A stretch of 64,000 bases of DNA from Campylobacterota bacterium (GTDB taxonomy: Bacteria; Campylobacterota; Campylobacteria; Campylobacterales; Sulfurimonadaceae): NCBI GenBank assembly GCA_040752835.1, contig JBFMGG010000006.1, positions 186,001-250,000 of the forward strand, in the 5' to 3' direction. Under the pieces are notes generated by a model, which saw only the letters and a program-made list of their open reading frames with translations, searched no databases and was not told where the DNA came from. Position numbers and translations under genes: made by a program. Within the stretch, counting starts at the first letter, position 1, and the number at the start of each line of letters is the position of its first letter. Shown here piece by piece: positions 8,793 through 53,570 of this stretch.

Positions 8793-8825
8793 TGCTACGT
8801 TTTTGCTACGGATGGGGCGTACAAT
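8793..8825 (+). promoter_or_regulatory. Activator-type promoter: two TGCTACG half-sites and a -10
   Basis: TGCTACG at 8793-8799 and again at 8804-8810 (11-base period), then 9 bases, then TACAAT at 8820-8825. The acetate operon promoter (51612-51644, minus strand) has the same half-site twice, the same 4-base gap and the same 9-base distance to its -10. The 11-base period and position over -35 are typical of OmpR/PhoB-type response regulators bound as tandem dimers. Confidence 0.7.
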
Positions 8826-43749: not shown

Positions 43750-45708
43750 TTACCCTTTGACTTTCGCTTCGATCGTCGCAACGATGCTAGGATCTTCGAG
43801 CGTCGAGATATCCTGCGTGATCGCTTCGCCTTTGGCGATGGAGCGCAGGATACGGCGCATGATTTTGCCCGAACGGGTTTTCGGCAGGCCCGGAACGAAA
43901 ACGATATCGTCGCACACCGCGATGTTACCGATCTCTTTCATAATCACTTTATTGATCTCTTTGACCATTTCCATCTCTTCGCCGATGGTGTCTTCGCTTT
44001 TGAGGACGATGTAGGCGAAGATCCCTTCCCCTTTGATGTCGTGCGGTTTGCCGACGACGGCGACTTCGGCGACGTTGGGGTGTTTTTTACACGCCGCTTC
44101 GACTTCGGCCGTTCCCATACGGTGGCCCGAAACGTTGATAACGTCGTCTGTACGGCCCGTGATCGTGATGTAGCCGTCCGCATCGTAGATCGCGCCGTCA
44201 CCCGTAAAGTAAACCGCTTTGCCCTCTTTTTTGACGTCGCCGAAATACGATTTGACGAAACGCTCCGGGTCTCCCCAGATGTTGCGGATCATTGACGGCC
44301 AAGGACGTGTTACGCACATGTAGCCGCTTTCGCCAACGCCCACTTTTGCACCCGTTTGCGGATCAAGAATTTCTCCCATGATCCCCGGCAACGGCAGCGT
44401 GGCGCACGCCGGTTTGATCGGTGTCGCACCCGGGAGCGGAGAAACGATGTGCCCGCCCGTTTCGGTCTGCCAGTAGGTATCGACGATGGCGCATTTGCCG
44501 CCGCCGACCGCTTCGTAGTACCATTTCCATGCCGGCGGGTCGATCGGTTCGCCGACGGTTCCGAGGACTTTCAGGCTGGAGAGGTCGTATTTCGAAGGCT
44601 CGTCTTCACCCGTTTTGTGCAATACGCGGATTGCGGTCGGCGCGGTGTAGAACTGGTTGATTTTGTATTCTTCGACCATTTTCCACGGACGTCCGGCATC
44701 CGGATAGGTCGGAACCCCTTCGAACATCACGGTCGTCGCACCCATCGCCAGCGGTCCGTACACGATGTAGGTGTGACCGGTGATCCAGCCTACGTCCGCC
44801 GTACACCAGTAGGTGTCGTTTTCTTTGACGTCGAATACCCATTCCATCGTCATCTGCGCCCACAGGATGTATCCCGCCTGGTTGTGCTGGACCCCTTTGG
44901 GTTTGCCGGTAGAACCGGACGTATAGAGGAGGAAGAGCGGATCTTCGGCATCCATGATCTCCGCAGGACATTCGGGAGCTTGGTTTTTGATCAGTTCGTT
45001 GTACGAATAATCGCGTCCCGCCACCCAGTTGATGTCTTCGTTGTTGCGCTCGATGACGAGCACTTTCTCGACCGGAGAATTCTCGGTAATCGCCTGGTCT
45101 ACGACCGGCTTGAGCATGTAAGGCTTGTCTTTACGGTAGGCACCGTCAGCGGTGATAACCAGTTTCGCCTCGGCGTCTTCGATACGGTCTTTGAGCGCTT
45201 CGGCCGAGAAACCGCCGAATACGATCGAGTGGATCGCACCGATACGGGCACACGCCAGCATCGCGTAAGCCGCTTCGGGAATCATCGGCATATAGATGAT
45301 GACGCGGTCACCCTTTTTGACGTGGAACTCGTTTTTGAGAAGGTTGGCAAAGCGGTTGACGTTGTAGTAAAGCTCCAGATACGTAATGATCTGTTTGTCG
45401 CCGCGGTCCCCTTCGAAGATGATCGCCGCTTTGTTTTTACGGGTCGAAAGATGGCGGTCAATACACTGGTGGGCAACGTTGAGTTTTCCACCGACAAACC
45501 ATTTGTAAAACGGTGCGTTGCTCTCGTCGAGCACCTGCGTATACGGCTGGAACCAGTCGATTTTTTCGTTTGCGAAGTGTCCCCAGTACCCTTCGTAATC
45601 TTCGTTGGCCCAGTCTTGAAGTTCTTTGTACTCGCACATGTTTTTGATGCGCGCGTTTTTGGCGAACTCACGGTTGGGATGAAAAATCGGTTTTACGGTA
45701 TCGCTCAT
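43750..45708 (-). CDS. acs: Acetyl-coenzyme A synthetase
   Basis: 652 residues, the standard length. The ATP-binding [47 protein letters not shown] and the C-terminal [14 protein letters not shown] (with the acetylatable Lys) are all present. It turns acetate, ATP and CoA into acetyl-CoA. It is the last gene of the minus-strand run porin - DUF485 - actP - DUF294 - exonuclease - acs and lies 12 bases after the exonuclease. Confidence 0.97.
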
Positions 45709-45720
45709 AGCAATTGCTCC

Positions 45721-46335
45721 TTAGTTTAATTTAATGGTGTGTTGTAATTTTATGTAGACCATAGCGGTCATAATCGCATCGTTCAATGCGTTGTGTTGAC
45801 CCATCTTCGGGATGTTTAAATCGCGTAAGATTGTATCAAAGCGTAAATCAATATTTCCTTGCGGAATAAGGGCAATTTTCTTGTCAAAATATAGCCCCGA
45901 CACCTCGATCTGGCGGTTGGGGAGCGTTACCCCCAGCCACGGCTTGATCATACGGTTCATCATGGAGACGTCAAACTCCAGGTAATAGCCCACCAGCGGG
46001 CGGTTCCCCACAAATTCTAAAAACTTTTTCACCCCCTCTAACGGCTCGACGGCGTGTTCAAGATCACACGGCCTTATATGATGGATTTTAATGCTTTCGG
46101 CACTGATGGCGCGGGACGGTTTAAGAAACACCTCGAAACTCTGCGAGGTGAGAATTCTGTCCCCTTTGACTTTGACCGCGCCGATACTCAGAACTTCGTC
46201 TTTTTTCGGATTCAATCCGGTCGTTTCGGTATCGAAAACGACCGCTTCATCCCCTTCGTAGGGCTCGAAGAGCGACGCATACGCATCGTCTTTGAGCCCC
46301 CGGAGGTTCCATGAGCGTCTCAACGCCTCGAACAT
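45721..46335 (-). CDS. DnaQ-like 3'-5' exonuclease (DEDDh)
   Basis: 204 residues. The exonuclease motifs are FDTETTGLNPKKDEVLSIGA (ExoI, D and E), VGYYLEFDVSMMNRM (ExoII) and HNALNDAIMTAMV (ExoIII, H and D), the catalytic DEDDh set. It resembles the PolC-like exonucleases that sit beside DUF294/CBS genes and acetate genes in many proteobacteria. Its place in acetate metabolism is unexplained. The start overlaps the stop of the DUF294 gene by 1 base. Confidence 0.88.
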   Translation of the reverse strand: MFEALRRSWNLRGLKDDAYASLFEPYEGDEAVVFDTETTGLNPKKDEVLSIGAVKVKGDRILTSQSFEVFLKPSRAISAESIKIHHIRPCDLEHAVEPLEGVKKFLEFVGNRPLVGYYLEFDVSMMNRMIKPWLGVTLPNRQIEVSGLYFDKKIALIPQGNIDLRFDTILRDLNIPKMGQHNALNDAIMTAMVYIKLQHTIKLN

Positions 46336-48164
46336 TACACTACCATCCCCAGATGGAAGTGGTAGGTCAGGAATTTTTTGAACGTGTTAACGATTTTGAA
46401 TGCGTCTTTGAGCAGATCCCGGTCGGCTTTGCTGAGCAGTTTGGGATTGACGTAATTTTGTTCCTTGAGTACCTGCTTTTGAGAGAGCATCGTCCGCAGC
46501 CGGATCGAGAGCAGCGTATCGTAGGCTTCGATCAGTTCACTCGCGAACCGCTTGTCGAACAATCCGATGTTATTGAGTTCCTTGATCCGTTCGGTCGTAT
46601 TGGTCGTCTCGATCTTGTGCTCAAGGGCTAGGATCCGCACACCGTGGACGATCGCGAACACCCCTCCTTTTTTGATGTCGAGTTCGCTCTCATGCGCGTC
46701 GCGTCCCAGGACGAAGCCCGAAAACAGCGACAGCGGGGTCTCGAACGCCAGCGATGCCTTCGCCAGATGGGCCAGAATATCGCTGCGACCCTCGAAACGC
46801 TCGAAGAGAAAATTTTTGCACTCGGTTAAAAGCGTCTCATCACCCGCCACACAATGGGCGTCAAGAAAAATGGAAAGCGACTGGAGCGTCTCTTCGTTGA
46901 GCGTATCGGTCCATGAGGAAATCTGTTTTTTATAGCCCGAAACACTTCGGCGCCAGTAAGGGTTGCTGACCATGATGTTGCCGGCGCATTTGGGAAACCC
47001 GAGCCGGATCAGGTACTCGTTGAGCCGCTCCATGAAAGGACGGTACGCTTCTTCGTCTTCACCGTCGGCAATGATGAGGGCATTGTCCTGATCGGTGCGC
47101 AATACCTGCTCGCCGCGCCCTTCGCTTCCCATTACGACGAGCGCGCAGCGGCGCTGCATCGTCTCGGGAAGGACCATTTCGAACACTTTGCGGTACACCT
47201 TGGCGTTGAGTTCGCTCACCAGCTTGGAGACGTAGCGGACCCGCACCCCTTTGGAAGTGAGCGACCTGACCACCTGCATAAGCGAGCGTTCGATGCTTTG
47301 CAGCTCGTCGATGGAAGTGGCGCGCTCGATGGAGGCGGCAATGAGGTGGGTATGGTTGGCAAAATGGCTCAGCAGATCGAGCTGTTCGAGAATACCGACG
47401 ATTTTTCCCTCTTCGGTCACGACGAGGCGTTTAACCCCGTGCTTTGTGAACAGCAGAAGCGCGTTGAACAAAAAGTCGCTCCTCTCGATCGTAATAAGAC
47501 CGTACGTTGCGATGTCGCCGATCGGATCGGAAACGCTTTTGTCGGCCAAAAGGACTTTCTCGCGCAGGTTCGTGTCGGTGACGATCCCCATTACCCCCTC
47601 ATTGTCCACCAGAATCACTTTTGCGTTTGTCCCCGCCATCTCGGAGAGAGCGTTTCGGATCGAGGCCTGCGCACCGATAATGCAAGGGACATGGAGGTAG
47701 ATTTCATCGACACGGGCCACCATAAACGGGGTCAGCTCGTTTTGGTGCTGACGTTCTTTAAGACGCTGATGTTTGGTGATGAAATCCTGCATGAAATAGT
47801 TTTGGAACGTTTCGGCGTCTTGGAGAAGGTTGAGGAAGGATTCTTTGGGAAGGGAGTAACAGATCAGGTCTTCGGCAACGATGAAAGTGCTTTGGGTATT
47901 GCCGTATATAAGGGAGTTCGCATCGAAGCTGTCACGTTCGCCGTAGACGTTTTGGAGTTCACCGTCGATGGTTTCATTGACGATGCCTTTGATGATAATG
48001 TAAAGCGATTCGGCCCTCACCCTCGGAGCGATCAGTACCGTCTCCCTGGGATAGTAGGCAATATCCATCTGGGTCATCAGCTTTTCGATCATTCGCTCGG
48101 TAAGCAGATCAAACGGATGGATCGACATTAAAAGTGCTTTTTGGTCAAAGAGACTCAAAACCAT
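46335..48164 (-). CDS. Cyclic-nucleotide/CBS/DUF294 nucleotidyltransferase-like protein
   Basis: 609 residues. Order: a cyclic-nucleotide-binding-like domain (about 20-145, ESLYIIIKGIVNETIDGE), a pair of CBS domains (about 155-275, AKVILVDNEGVMGIVTDTNL and VKRLVVTEEGKIVGILEQLD), a DUF294 nucleotidyltransferase domain (about 300-470, ALVVMGSEGRGEQVLRTDQDNAL, with the GSEGRGEQ..TDQD site) and a DUF294 C-terminal helical part. It may sense a nucleotide and modify a target. The ATG at 48164 has its SD directly against it; a TTG two codons later (48158) has AGGAG at 5 bases, so the true start may be that one. Confidence 0.85.
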   Translation of the reverse strand: MVLSLFDQKALLMSIHPFDLLTERMIEKLMTQMDIAYYPRETVLIAPRVRAESLYIIIKGIVNETIDGELQNVYGERDSFDANSLIYGNTQSTFIVAEDLICYSLPKESFLNLLQDAETFQNYFMQDFITKHQRLKERQHQNELTPFMVARVDEIYLHVPCIIGAQASIRNALSEMAGTNAKVILVDNEGVMGIVTDTNLREKVLLADKSVSDPIGDIATYGLITIERSDFLFNALLLFTKHGVKRLVVTEEGKIVGILEQLDLLSHFANHTHLIAASIERATSIDELQSIERSLMQVVRSLTSKGVRVRYVSKLVSELNAKVYRKVFEMVLPETMQRRCALVVMGSEGRGEQVLRTDQDNALIIADGEDEEAYRPFMERLNEYLIRLGFPKCAGNIMVSNPYWRRSVSGYKKQISSWTDTLNEETLQSLSIFLDAHCVAGDETLLTECKNFLFERFEGRSDILAHLAKASLAFETPLSLFSGFVLGRDAHESELDIKKGGVFAIVHGVRILALEHKIETTNTTERIKELNNIGLFDKRFASELIEAYDTLLSIRLRTMLSQKQVLKEQNYVNPKLLSKADRDLLKDAFKIVNTFKKFLTYHFHLGMVV

Positions 48165-48211: not shown

Positions 48212-49879
48212 TTAGTGCTCAACGGCACCCTCAGCACCGATACCGGTCTGGCAGCGGATGTTTTGCGCTTCGAACGCTTCGTACTCTTTTTTGGCCGTAT
48301 CGCTCTTGTCGGTGATCGAGAAGAACCAGATACCGACGAACGCCGCCGTGACCGAGAACAGAGCCGGATATTTGTACGGGAAGATCGCTTCCGCGTTACC
48401 CAGTACGTCCACCCATACGGTCGGCCCGAGGATCACCAGAACCGCAGCCGTAGCCAAACCGAGCGATCCGCCGATCAGTGCACCGCGAGTGGTGAGTTTC
48501 GACCAGAACATGGAGAGGAACAGGATCGGGAAGTTCGCACTCGCCGCAATAGCGAAGGCAAGACCGACCATGAACGCGATGTTCTGGCTCTCAAACGCGA
48601 TTCCCAGGAAAATCGCAACAATCCCCAACGCAACGGTAGAGATTTTAGAAACTTTCATCTCCATAAGCCCATCCGCACGTCCTGCACGCAGAACCGAAGC
48701 ATAAAGGTCGTGTGAGATCGCCGAGGCACCTGCAAGCGTCAGACCCGATACGACCGCAAGGATCGTAGCGAACGCTACCGCCGAGATGAACCCGAGGAAG
48801 AAGTCTCCGCCAACCGCATGTGAAAGGTGGATCGCCGCCATGTTGTCGCCGCCGAGGATCGGAGCACCGCCGTCGATCGCCTGTTTTGCCACGTCAAGAT
48901 ACTGCGGGTTCTGGAAAACCATGACGATCGCACCGAAACCGATAATGAACGTCAGGATATAGAAATACCCGATGAATCCCGTCGCGTAGAACACCGATTT
49001 GCGAGCTTCTTTGGCATCGGCAACGGTGAAGAAACGCATCAGGATGTGCGGAAGACCCGCCGTACCGAACATAAGAGCGATACCCAAAGAAATGGCCGAA
49101 ATCGGATCGGAAACGAGCCCGCCCGGAGCCATAATGTCTGTTGTCCCTTTCATCTCAACCGCAGTCGCGAACAGCGATTCGAAGTTGAAGTTGTAGTGGG
49201 CCATAACGGCAACCGCCATGAACGTCGCACCTGAAAGAAGGAGGAACGCTTTAATGATCTGTACCCATGTCGTCGCCAGCATACCGCCGAACGTAACGTA
49301 GAGGATCATCAGGACGCCGACGAGAATAACCGCAACTTCGTAATCCAGACCGAACAGAAGCTGGATCAGTTTACCCGCACCGACCATCTGCGCGATCAGA
49401 TAAAGGATAACCGTCACGATCGAACCGAAAGCCGCCAAAGTACGAATAGGCGTCTGCTGCAGACGATACGACGCAACGTCCGCGAACGTGTACTTACCGA
49501 GGTTGCGAAGCTGCTCGGCGATCATGAACAGAATGATCGGCCACCCGACAAGGAACCCGATAGAGTAGATCAGACCGTCATACCCTTTGGCATAAACGAG
49601 TGCCGAAATCCCCAGGAACGATGCCGCCGACATATAGTCGCCCGCGATCGCCATACCGTTTTGAAATCCGGTGATCCCGCCGCCGGCGGTATAGAAATCT
49701 TTCGCCGTTTTGGTCCGTTTTGCGGCCCAATAGGTGATACCCAATGTAGCACCGACAAAGATCAAGAACATAATGATCGCCGACATGTTCAGCGCCTGTT
49801 TTTCCACTTCGCCGCCCAGAGCGTCGCCCGCAAAGGCATACCCTGCGGCAAGAAGGGTCAGTAACAACGTTTTCATCAT
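48212..49879 (-). CDS. actP: Cation/acetate symporter ActP
   Basis: 555 residues, a sodium:solute symporter with about 13 membrane helices after an N-terminal signal-like segment. Typical ActP text: [60 protein letters not shown] and [20 protein letters not shown]. It imports acetate with a cation. The DUF485 gene overlaps its start by 4 bases, the usual yjcH-actP pair. Confidence 0.95.
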
Positions 49880-50196
49880 TCTCCCTTTACTTTCGCTTTG
49901 ATGCGGTTCGTCGCTTCGTCGAACTCGCCGTTGGCACGTTTGACGTAGATACCCGTCAAAATGAATGCGCTGAGGATAACCCCGATCCCGACCGGGATAC
50001 CGACCGTGGTAACCGAACCTGCAGAAAGCGGAGCCCCCAAAAGTTTCGGATCAAACGCGATCACCAGGACAAACCCGAAATAGATGACGAGCATCGCGAT
50101 GGTCAGTATCCAGGCAAAACGCCCCCGTTCGCTTACCAAACGGAGATAATCAGGATCATTTTTGATCTGATCTACCAGTTCTTGTTTCATAATCAA
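49876..50196 (-). CDS. DUF485 (YjcH-like) membrane protein
   Basis: 106 residues with two membrane helices ([20 protein letters not shown] and [20 protein letters not shown]). DUF485 proteins are the constant upstream partner of ActP and may be a small subunit or assembly factor. It overlaps actP by 4 bases and follows the porin by 6. Confidence 0.93.
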
Positions 50197-50202
50197 CCTC
50201 CT

Positions 50203-51582
50203 TTAAAAGTTGTAGTTCGCGATAACGCGGTATTCGTCCCAACCCATGTTTCCGGCGGTTGTCTCTTTGTAGCCGCGCGGGAAATTGCCGCGCAGGCGCA
50301 GCTGAAGGTTTTTAACGACCTGAGGGTTGTAAATGATATCAAATCCTGCTTCGGTCGCTTTATCCGCCGATACGGCGTCCGAATACCCGTTGAGCGGATC
50401 CATGTCATATTCGACATAGAAAACGCCCGTATTAAGATTGACGCCGTAATCTTTCCAGTCGTACGACGCCGCAACTTTCCAGGCATCGGTGCCGGCCATA
50501 AACTGGTGACGCGTTACCATACCCTGGGTATACGCCGGCATTCCGCCCCACGGAGAGACCGTTCCGCCGTTGATCGCGGAAGCATCATCTTTGGTATTGT
50601 GTGAAACGGCGACCGAAACATCGCAGTTTCCGATTTTTGCTCCGACTTTCGCCGCTACGAAATCGCTTTCGATTTTGTTGAGTTCCAAAGCCGGCGATGC
50701 GTTGTTCGATCCCACATCGCGTTCGTTGATCCACTGCACCCCGACATACGGTGAAATACCGCTTGCATACGACCAGCCGTAGTTGGCTTCCGTATAAACG
50801 GCATTGAGGATGTCATGCGCATAGTAATCCCACAATTGAAGCTTGAGTCCTTTGATCCCTGTGTAAACAGCGGCCAAAACGCTCACGCCCCCGGTATTGT
50901 CGCCGATCGCATACGTACCCATGTCGACGAATTCCCCGACATAGTTTTTCGTATCGACGAGGGAATATCCCGACGTTCCGCTGAGTACTTTATCCGGTAC
51001 GCCGCCTGCACCGTTGTAAGCGCGGCCGAAAGTCCCCTGTGCGAATTTTGTCACATGTGCCGCAATCAGCGTCGTGTCTTTGAGGTCCGTATTCGTCAGA
51101 ACATACGCTTCAAACAGGTTGGGAAGCATCCGAGCATCGTCGCTGCCCGCAAGCGGCGTATCGAGTTTCTGGCGTCCGCCCTTAAATGTCGTATTACCGT
51201 TTTTGTATTGCAGATACGCTTCGCCCAGATAGGTCACCGAATCGTTGCTTTTACCCAGCAATGTCGGATCGACTTCAGGATTGTCGGCACCGCTGGAGGT
51301 GGTTTTGTCTTTCAAAAACAAACCGTTCGACGTATAAAACGCCGCACCCAGACTCACACCGTTCCATGCACCCGTCTCGTATTTCAGGTATCCGCCGACT
51401 GCGGTCGCATTACGGTGGACCGACGTGGCATTGCTGTATCCGTCGTAATCACGGTCGATGTAGAAAGCACGCAGCTGACCGCTTGCTTTCCCTTCTTTAA
51501 ACATACCCGCCAAATCATCGGCAGCCATAGCGTTGACGACCAGCGCCGACGCCAAAAGCGACAGAGATACTGTACCTCTCAT
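50203..51582 (-). CDS. OprD-like outer membrane porin of the acetate operon
   Basis: 459 residues from ATG 51582 (SD GAAGGAG; an in-frame GTG at 51588 is less well spaced). Signal peptide (MRGTVSLSLLASALVVNAMA), then an OprD-type barrel: GKASGQLRAFYIDRDYDGYS, LGEAYLQYKNGNTTFKGGRQ and a C-terminus that ends YRVIANYNF with the terminal Phe. It probably admits acetate or other small carboxylates. First gene of the acetate operon, under the two-site promoter at 51612-51644. Confidence 0.88.
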   Translation of the reverse strand: MRGTVSLSLLASALVVNAMAADDLAGMFKEGKASGQLRAFYIDRDYDGYSNATSVHRNATAVGGYLKYETGAWNGVSLGAAFYTSNGLFLKDKTTSSGADNPEVDPTLLGKSNDSVTYLGEAYLQYKNGNTTFKGGRQKLDTPLAGSDDARMLPNLFEAYVLTNTDLKDTTLIAAHVTKFAQGTFGRAYNGAGGVPDKVLSGTSGYSLVDTKNYVGEFVDMGTYAIGDNTGGVSVLAAVYTGIKGLKLQLWDYYAHDILNAVYTEANYGWSYASGISPYVGVQWINERDVGSNNASPALELNKIESDFVAAKVGAKIGNCDVSVAVSHNTKDDASAINGGTVSPWGGMPAYTQGMVTRHQFMAGTDAWKVAASYDWKDYGVNLNTGVFYVEYDMDPLNGYSDAVSADKATEAGFDIIYNPQVVKNLQLRLRGNFPRGYKETTAGNMGWDEYRVIANYNF

Positions 51583-51611
51583 TCTCACTCCTTCTTTTTT
51601 TTCACACTGTC

Positions 51612-51644
51612 ATTATGAAAACAAAACGTAGCACGAACGTAGCA
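51612..51644 (-). promoter_or_regulatory. Acetate operon promoter with two TGCTACG half-sites
   Basis: On the minus strand: TGCTACG (51644-51638), 4 bases, TGCTACG (51633-51627), 9 bases, CATAAT (51617-51612), 30 bases before the porin ATG. The longer repeat unit is TGCTACGTT with 11-base period. Layout and half-site are the same as before the unknown gene at 8856. The neighbouring response regulator is the natural candidate for binding here. Confidence 0.75.
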
Positions 51645-51715: not shown

Positions 51716-52378
51716 TTATGAGCGGGGAATGTCGATCATGTAACCCAAAGAGCGGATATTCTGGATGAAATCCTCTTTGAGAGATTTTTTGAGACGGCTT
51801 ACTTCCGCACGGATCGTAGCATTGTCGACGTACTCTTCATCCCATATATAGGCGCGAAACTGGTCGAAATCGACGATACGACCCCGATTTCTGGCCAAAA
51901 GATCGATAATCTGAAGCTGCCGTTTCGTCAACGGTTGTGTTACGTTTTCACACATTAAAGTTGACGTCGCGGCATCGTAACTGTAGCTTTTGGAGAGTTT
52001 GAGATGGCTTTGCGGAATGGCGCAGCTTTGCATCACCTTGTCGATTCGGAGCGAAAGCTCTTTGAGATGAAACGGTTTTTTCAGATAGTCGTAGCACCCC
52101 AGGTCGTAGGCGCGGCTGATCCCTTCGATATCCACCAGCGCGCTGATGTAGATCGCGGGTGTCCGTATTTTGAGGGCGTGAAGCTGTTCGAGCAGTTCCA
52201 GCCCGTTGATCCCCGGAACGTTGATGTCCAACACCAGAAGATCAAACGTTTCGCTTCTGAGCCTCTCCAGGGCATCGGTGCCGTCGTCAAACAGGCTGAC
52301 TCGATGTCCCAGAGAGGCCAAATACTCGTTGATCGCTTCGCTGAGCATCGCCTCGTCTTCAAGCAGAAGTATTTTCAA
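51716..52378 (-). CDS. OmpR-like response regulator
   Basis: 220 residues from a TTG at 52378 (SD AGAGG 6 bases away); the frame runs upstream to another TTG at 52408 without SD. Receiver domain: LLLEDEAML (acidic pair), LLVLDINVPGINGLELL (phospho-acceptor Asp), YISAL and YLKKPFHLKEL (Lys). The C-terminal winged helix (LTKRQLQIIDLLARNRGRIV, DNATIRAEVSRLKKSL, IRSLGYMIDI) is OmpR-type. It overlaps the histidine kinase gene by 20 bases. Proposed activator of the TGCTACG promoters at 51.6 and 8.8 kb, on position and promoter layout only. Confidence 0.9.
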   Translation of the reverse strand: MKILLLEDEAMLSEAINEYLASLGHRVSLFDDGTDALERLRSETFDLLVLDINVPGINGLELLEQLHALKIRTPAIYISALVDIEGISRAYDLGCYDYLKKPFHLKELSLRIDKVMQSCAIPQSHLKLSKSYSYDAATSTLMCENVTQPLTKRQLQIIDLLARNRGRIVDFDQFRAYIWDEEYVDNATIRAEVSRLKKSLKEDFIQNIRSLGYMIDIPRS

Positions 52379-53570
52379 TCGCAGCCTCTTTGTTAAAACG
52401 GTATTCAAAACGGGTCTTATCGTCTTCGAAACCGATCCGGATTTCGACCCCGTCCTCGTCGCAGATCGATTTGACCAGGCTCAGCCCCAGACCGAACCCG
52501 TCGCTTTTTTTTCGTTCGCGATAGTATGCCTCGAAAATCTTTTGGGCGTCATGAATTTTTTGCGAACGGCTCTGTACCCAAAAACGGCACGACAAACCGT
52601 CGCACGCGATGCCCACTTCGATCGGTTCGCCGCTTTTGCTGTAGCGGATCGCGTTGGTGATGTTGTTGTCGATCACCCGCTGGAGTTTCGTCTCGTTAAA
52701 ATGGATCCATGACTCGGGTTCGGGACGTCTGTAGCTAAAAGAATGATTTGAAAACTGGGCCACCTCATCGAAAAACTCAAGCCGTTTTTCGACGTATTCG
52801 CCTAACTCGATGGGTTTTTTGGGATAGTCGATCTGATCTTTTTTCACCAGGTAGCTCAGGTCGTCGTAAATGCTGAAGATGTTTTTGACCGCCGCTTCGA
52901 TCTTCGCCAGGTAACGGTTCCGCCCTTCGTTCATCGAGAAGAGTTCAATGTTGGCCATGATGACCGAAAGGGGAGTATGCGTTTCGTGAACGGCGTAGCG
53001 GATAAACTGCTTGTGCGATTCGAGCAGCTCCTGCGAAAACTTCTGCTCGGCTTCGAGCGCCTCGTTTTTGAGCTGCAGCGCGGCCGTTTTCCGTTTGACC
53101 CGCTCTTCGAGATCGGCGTTGAGAGTCCGGAGCGTCTCTTTTTGTTCCTGGATGGTCGACGCCATCTCGTTGGCGTACCCCGACATCCGCTTGAATTCGC
53201 TGAAATACAGTTCATCCCCGGAAATCGGCTTTGCACCGGTATGAACCGCTTCGAAAAACTTCATAAAGCGCTCCATGTCGCGTGCGATCATCGTATTGAC
53301 GATTTTGGAAATCCCGAAGATGAAACTGAACAGGATCAGCGCCAGTGTCGAGATCTCGACGATGATTTTGATCAGCCGCCCCTTGAGCGCATGGGAATCG
53401 CCCCGGATACCGAACAGCGTCGTGTCGGAAGCCAAAGCAAACTGGCGATACTCGTCATAGATGAGCAACGAAGCGAAAATAACGGTAAAAAGGAGAATGA
53501 AGACAATGGTATAGAAGTGGAGTTCACGCAGTGACAAACGGGCCAAACGACGCTGCAGCCAGGATTCCAA
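52359..53570 (-). CDS. Membrane sensor histidine kinase
   Basis: 403 residues from a TTG at 53570 (SD GGAG, 9 bases). Two membrane helices (about 18-38 and 67-90) enclose a very short periplasmic loop of about 28 residues, so it may sense a membrane or small-molecule signal. A coiled coil (about 130-185) leads to the dimerisation His in RYAVHETHTPLSVIMANIEL and a GHKL domain with the N box VIDNNITNAIRYS and GFGLGLSLVKSI. Partner of the response regulator, with which it overlaps. TATAAT on the minus strand at 53604-53599. Confidence 0.9.
   Translation of the reverse strand: MESWLQRRLARLSLRELHFYTIVFILLFTVIFASLLIYDEYRQFALASDTTLFGIRGDSHALKGRLIKIIVEISTLALILFSFIFGISKIVNTMIARDMERFMKFFEAVHTGAKPISGDELYFSEFKRMSGYANEMASTIQEQKETLRTLNADLEERVKRKTAALQLKNEALEAEQKFSQELLESHKQFIRYAVHETHTPLSVIMANIELFSMNEGRNRYLAKIEAAVKNIFSIYDDLSYLVKKDQIDYPKKPIELGEYVEKRLEFFDEVAQFSNHSFSYRRPEPESWIHFNETKLQRVIDNNITNAIRYSKSGEPIEVGIACDGLSCRFWVQSRSQKIHDAQKIFEAYYRERKKSDGFGLGLSLVKSICDEDGVEIRIGFEDDKTRFEYRFNKEAAIENTSA

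Follow-up and report, generated by a model that had tools for sequence, protein, structure and literature searches.

What links an acetate operon to the gene of an uncharacterised 113-residue protein (P113) in a Sulfuricurvum genome? The question is raised by two promoters that carry the same direct repeat at the same distance from the -10 box, for which a sequence-only reading of this DNA had proposed a common OmpR-type activator. The stretch analysed, referred to as the window, comprises 64,000 nucleotides (C6:186001-250000) of the 2.13 Mb genome, which was itself scanned by pattern, and the comparison was extended to a sample of 151 genomes of the family. The features are collected in Table 1.

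Table 1. Positions of the sites and genes discussed (window numbering, except for entries with a contig label).
Feature	Position	Strand	Description
Operator of promoter 1	8793..8810	+	TGCTACGTTTTTGCTACG; TGCTACG-TTTT-TGCTACG direct repeat, 11-base period, exact match
-10 box of promoter 1	8820..8825	+	TACAAT, 9 bases 3' of repeat
P113 gene	8856..9197	+	All-helical 113-residue protein, 3' of promoter 1
Acs acetyl-CoA synthetase	43750..45708	-	Pfam ACAS_N, AMP-binding, AMP-binding_C
RNase_T-type exonuclease	45721..46335	-	Pfam PF00929
cNMP-binding/CBS/DUF294 nucleotidyltransferase-like protein	46335..48164	-	Pfam
ActP cation/acetate symporter	48212..49879	-	NCBIfam NF006903 above cut-off; Pfam SSF
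DUF485 membrane protein	49876..50196	-	Pfam PF04341, E 1.6e-32
OprD-family porin	50203..51588	-	Pfam PF03573; first gene of acetate operon
-10 box of promoter 2	51612..51617	-	CATAAT, 9 bases 3' of repeat
Operator of promoter 2	51627..51644	-	TGCTACGTTCGTGCTACG; TGCTACG-TTCG-TGCTACG direct repeat; site including -10, 51644-51612
OmpR/PhoB-type response regulator	51716..52378	-	Response_reg + Trans_reg_C; recognition helix ATIRAEVSRLKK; proposed binder of both sites
Partner histidine kinase	52359..53570	-	Pfam HisKA + HATPase_c; 403 residues
Third site	C6:174898-174866	-	TGCTACGTTTGTGCTATG, 9 bases, TATAAT; 5' of chemoreceptor gene, 11 kb outside window
Sister regulator (43-46% identical)	C7:390320-390997		Same genome, outside window
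Variant sites (L201-L208)	G000: C7:386262-421221, C7:569840-569872, C4:20515-20547		Outside window

Repeat sites and the genes behind them

Both sites turned out as described in the sequence-only reading, with half-sites, 4-base gap and 9 bases to the -10 all exact at 8793-8825 on the forward strand and 51644-51612 on the reverse strand. The exact TGCTACG-N4-TGCTACG pair placed 9 bases 5' of a -10 has only these two copies in the whole window, where a first-order model predicts about 0.0001 exact pairs, and the claim that it is found nowhere else in the window also held, since no further exact or one-mismatch pair was detected there. The degenerate form TGCTAYR-N4-TGCTAYR gave 2 matches in the window at one mismatch against 0.05 expected, a number reached by 0 of 100 shuffles. 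At three mismatches, 4 pairs were counted in the window against 3.0 by chance in the shuffles; given this lack of excess, only near-perfect pairs are informative and weak matches were disregarded. The same lack of excess would agree with an accidental likeness of the two promoters, an explanation which is nevertheless refuted by the minute expectation for exact pairs, by the conservation across genera and by the empty reversed control described below.

A -35-like hexamer of the TTGACA type at a spacing of 16-18 is absent from both window promoters (promoter 1 reads CGTTTT, ACGTTT and TACGTT at these spacings), and in both the repeats overlap the -35 region. The 11-base period over the -35, together with a nearby regulator composed of a receiver and a Trans_reg_C domain, fits the OmpR-type activator that had been suggested. 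The same operator and regulator could also work by repression, or in a dual manner, with the operon derepressed on acetate, as a protein bound over the -35 region can block polymerase; however, promoters devoid of a TTGACA-like hexamer look activator-dependent, and the fixed 9 bases to the -10 are a requirement of a polymerase-touching activator, which makes repression improbable.

With one mismatch allowed, the full genome of 2.13 Mb contains three pairs, each located 9 bases before a -10, so the motif is not scattered outside promoters; all three promoters (3/3) lie on the same contig. The presumed two-promoter regulon has thus to be enlarged to three promoters in its own genome, the third preceding a chemoreceptor gene. 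The chemoreceptor has 472 residues with sCache_2 as its sensor; in the N-terminal 271 residues, the part covered by the Pfam scan, sCache_2 (PF17200, 5.6e-42) is followed by HAMP. Binding of acetate and propionate has been measured for the sCache_2 domain of PscD, whose ligands also include glycolate and pyruvate (PMC5062169).

P113 is modelled with six helices (AlphaFold2 pLDDT 90) and carries the conserved motifs RK and RGEFND, with no match in Pfam or NCBIfam and none in the PDB at E <= 0.001. Its homologues are distributed over Sulfuricurvum, Sulfurimonas and a few Arcobacteraceae. The site stands 5' of 41 of the 44 homologues, 17-72 bases before the start codon, and two Arcobacteraceae P113 loci are without it; the tie of this uncharacterised gene to the same site is thereby borne out, and the sequences lend good support to a control shared with acetate use. 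In the assembly G112, two P113 copies (L061, L062) with identical promoters are each accompanied by a KdsB-like cytidylyltransferase gene. In genus g11 (L126, L131, L134), a conserved site precedes a predicted peptide of ~40 residues (FYYRLPSLGLGW...) encoded on the strand opposite to P113 and downstream of it.

On the acetate side, the same-strand order is kinase, regulator, site, porin and the rest of the acetate operon, so that the kinase/regulator pair sits directly upstream and not, as first read, right behind the operon. The regulator starts with TTG at 52378, overlapping the end of the kinase gene, and consists of a receiver domain (PF00072, 2e-24) followed by a winged-helix domain (PF00486, 1.2e-12). 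Its assignment as a PhoB orthologue was rejected, as the TIGR02154 score of 83.6 bits is below the cut-off of 296.2. The kinase possesses two transmembrane helices with a loop of ~25 residues between them (hydropathy) and resembles intramembrane-sensing kinases; neither Pfam nor hydropathy revealed an extracytoplasmic sensor domain. Acetate as the signal is therefore unsupported by the kinase anatomy, and owing to the short loop sensing probably takes place within the membrane or in the cytoplasm. The content of the regulon, with porin, ActP, Acs and the sCache_2 receptor, points to acetate or short carboxylates.

Conservation of the site and its link to the regulator

The strict pattern including the -10 gave sites in 64 of the 151 family genomes, far above the reversed control, and the relaxed pattern without mismatches was found in 102 of them with a reversed control of 0. 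The consensus derived from 85 sites is TGCTAYR-YTNN-TGCTAYR, N9, YANNAT, and the sites lie nearly all 5' of the acetate operon, P113 or a methyl-accepting chemotaxis protein (MCP) gene. A distance of 9 bases to the -10 was observed at 120 of 128 sites overall, and at 55 of 61 sites in loci that were fetched by protein alone, with the -10 not used. Such a strictly fixed distance might also be expected of a promoter element for an alternative sigma factor, but the tandem heptamer with its 11-base period and the sigma-70-like -10 speak against it, as does the fact that the motif tracks a winged-helix response regulator and its variant tracks a sister regulator (see below), and this explanation is highly improbable.

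In relatives, the acetate operon keeps its gene order, again with the kinase and regulator genes immediately 5' of it. Conservation of the motif before acetate genes, on which the earlier proposal depended, held across genera, with the site staying 5' of the porin in other genera whose proteins are mostly 40-70% identical. Where a gene of ~1 kb is located between regulator and porin, in Sulfurimonas and other genera (L210, L211, L218, L233, L241, L242), the site is still 5' of the porin, and where the regulator is encoded elsewhere in the genome (G005, G017) it remains directly before the porin; the site goes with the porin, not with the position of the regulator. In some Sulfurimonas-like genomes, an MCP gene comes after the regulator and the site precedes the MCP (L216, L239, L116).

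Further genes with a TGCTAY-type site, some with weaker half-sites, were noticed in other genera and form a candidate extended regulon. They include a 4HBT thioesterase (Pfam; L127/L133/L135/L138) and, as judged by eye, NDH-2-like oxidoreductases (L119, L121, L125), an aldehyde dehydrogenase (L122) and a DctP-like binding protein (L059). Because such genes carry the site, the signal may extend beyond acetate. In the loci read from other families of the order, both the site and an adjacent acetate operon are missing beside the regulator homologues (55-63% identical), which suggests that the regulon is confined to this family.

An orthologue of the regulator, defined as a match to the true window sequence at E <= 1e-70, is present in 101 of the 151 family genomes. 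Motif and regulator occur together in 98 genomes, neither occurs in 46 and just one in 7 (Fisher 2.6e-30, a value which overstates independence because of shared ancestry). The motif is found in 98 of the 101 genomes with the regulator and in 4 of the 50 without it, and since the latter may also lack the acetate operon, these counts may reflect linkage to the regulator or to the operon. Within single genera, where the inflation by ancestry is lessened though not removed, the corresponding values are 35/35 against 0/6 in Sulfuricurvum and 45/46 against 1/12 in Sulfurimonas. The genomes with the motif and no full regulator are G018, G023, G050 and G115 (a partial copy is present in G115), and those with the regulator but no match to the relaxed motif are G011, G017 and G071. 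That the presence of the motif follows that of the regulator agrees with the tie between the two proposed earlier. In the alignment of the acetate clade, the start of the recognition helix, TIRAE, is nearly invariant.

The same TIRAE helix is also carried by a second regulator, 58-61% identical, in several family genomes (L212, L229-L231), which leaves some room for a different OmpR-type paralogue, instead of the adjacent regulator, as the protein that binds TGCTAYR. This assignment is decidedly improbable, as a single regulator reaches E <= 1e-70 in the present genome, the motif tracks the adjacent regulator within genera, and the next paralogue (43-46%) co-occurs with a different motif. At L212, L229, L230, L231 and L235, the 58-61% regulator is encoded with a kinase and without the acetate operon or a TGCTAY site.

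Sister regulator and related boxes

The gene of the sister regulator is preceded by a variant repeat, TGCMACR-N4-TGCMACR (M = A/C, R = A/G), with the same 9-base distance to a -10. The variant repeat is also located 5' of seven more genes, including a two-mismatch match at C7:421221, which encode an HD-GYP protein, an MCP with a CZB domain, kinase- and PAS-type signalling proteins, a POTRA protein and a receiver protein. Together they would form another regulon of this genome, putatively under the sister regulator and composed mostly of signalling and taxis genes. In total, ~125 copies of the variant repeat were counted in 31 of the 151 family genomes, with a reversed control of 0, and it was present in 23 of the 25 genomes with the sister regulator against 8 of the 126 without. 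This independent pair of variant repeat and sister regulator supports such repeats as operators of these regulators. The recognition helices of the two clades, STIRSLVNR in the sister clade and NATIRAEV(S/N)R in the acetate clade, differ in two residues (AE to SL), and the correlation suggests that these positions go with base 4 of the half-site.

The TGCAACG pairs in G049, G055 and G066 were considered as members of the same regulon and rejected, for they stand beside a different receiver protein and a 7TMR-type kinase (by eye). The TGCAACG-N4-TGCAACG sites at L246, L056/L057 and L130 precede genes of Gly/Ser-rich lipoprotein-like proteins and possibly represent a third system with the same kind of box.

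Proposed mechanism, known counterparts and meaning

From the observed sites, their geometry, their conservation and their co-occurrence with the regulator, we infer with a probability of about 0.87 that the repeat is the operator of the regulator encoded at 51716-52378, which together with the adjacent kinase would activate an acetate-acquisition regulon of three promoters; binding, activation, the signal and the role of P113 belong to the inferred part. The adjacent kinase would phosphorylate the regulator, which would then bind as a head-to-tail dimer to the two half-sites one DNA turn apart, and the bound dimer would stand in for the missing -35 and recruit sigma-70 RNA polymerase, as PhoB does at the pho box. 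With the acetate operon, the sCache_2 chemoreceptor and P113 as its three targets, the logic of the regulon would be to find acetate or a short carboxylate, take it up and activate it. In the main, the sequence-only reading is supported. Going further, the kinase might read the transport activity of ActP/DUF485 in the membrane rather than acetate, with P113 as a dedicated, structurally new part of acetate assimilation or of this feedback; this extension is doubtful, and if it is true, the acetate regulon would be under flux control in Sulfuricurvum and Sulfurimonas.

Activators of the PhoB type replace the -35 contact at the promoter. The present system belongs like PhoB to the OmpR/PhoB family and has, like the pho box, a 7+4+7 direct repeat over a poor -35 with the -10 present. 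The PHO box is CTGTCAT-N4-CTGTCAT, two 7-base direct repeats with a 4-base gap (PMC3131613), and the spacing of the box to the core promoter is strict for PhoB (PMC10294691). Different from PhoB, the half-site here is TGCTAYR instead of CTGTCAT, the targets serve acetate uptake and activation instead of phosphate, and a short loop joins the two membrane helices of the kinase.

CrbS/CrbR (MxtR/ErdR) of Vibrio and Pseudomonas likewise places acs and actP under two-component control, and an MCP gene is predicted, together with hypothetical genes, to belong to its regulon (PMC5715377). However, CrbR is a LuxR-family regulator acting at an imperfect inverted repeat (ACTU), whereas an OmpR/PhoB-type regulator and a direct repeat are found here, and CrbS combines, via STAC, a kinase with an SLC5 symporter in one protein, while the present kinase has no SSF domain. 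Membership in CrbS/CrbR was rejected on the lack of a GerE domain (the regulator has only Response_reg and Trans_reg_C), of an SLC5/SSF fusion and of an inverted repeat; in Gammaproteobacteria, CrbS/CrbR fills the corresponding functional role without being the same family.

Among the OmpR-type regulators of the phylum that have been studied by experiment, the nearest one found to have repeats of this period over the -35 is PceP (TCS2) of Sulfurospirillum, an OmpR-family protein whose CTATA repeats, shown by EMSA, recur every 11 bases and overlap the -35 (PMC7755780). Its CTATA resembles the inner GCTAYR of TGCTAYR. PceP differs in its consensus, CTATW-N17-CTATW, in which the middle repeat is attributed to polymerase, in its targets, the tetrachloroethene regulon of organohalide respiration, and in its seven-helix sensor kinase.

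In the literature searched, mostly outside subscription journals, no published acetate two-component system matching the present one was found for Campylobacterota, Sulfuricurvum or Arcobacter, nor any regulator of acetate use for Sulfuricurvum or Sulfurimonas. The regulon is new and of a kind already known. Judged from the sequence comparisons, it is very probable that an OmpR-type regulator turns on the acetate-uptake operon, the chemoreceptor gene and the small-protein gene in Sulfuricurvum and Sulfurimonas. An operator and a regulon are hereby assigned to a two-component system that some two thirds of the sampled genomes of the family possess, acetate uptake is linked to a chemoreceptor, and P113, a conserved family without a Pfam entry, obtains its first functional handle. 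The two sister regulators form a natural pair in one cell, with operators differing chiefly at one half-site base, and would lend themselves to tests of how the regulons of OmpR-type regulators are kept separate.
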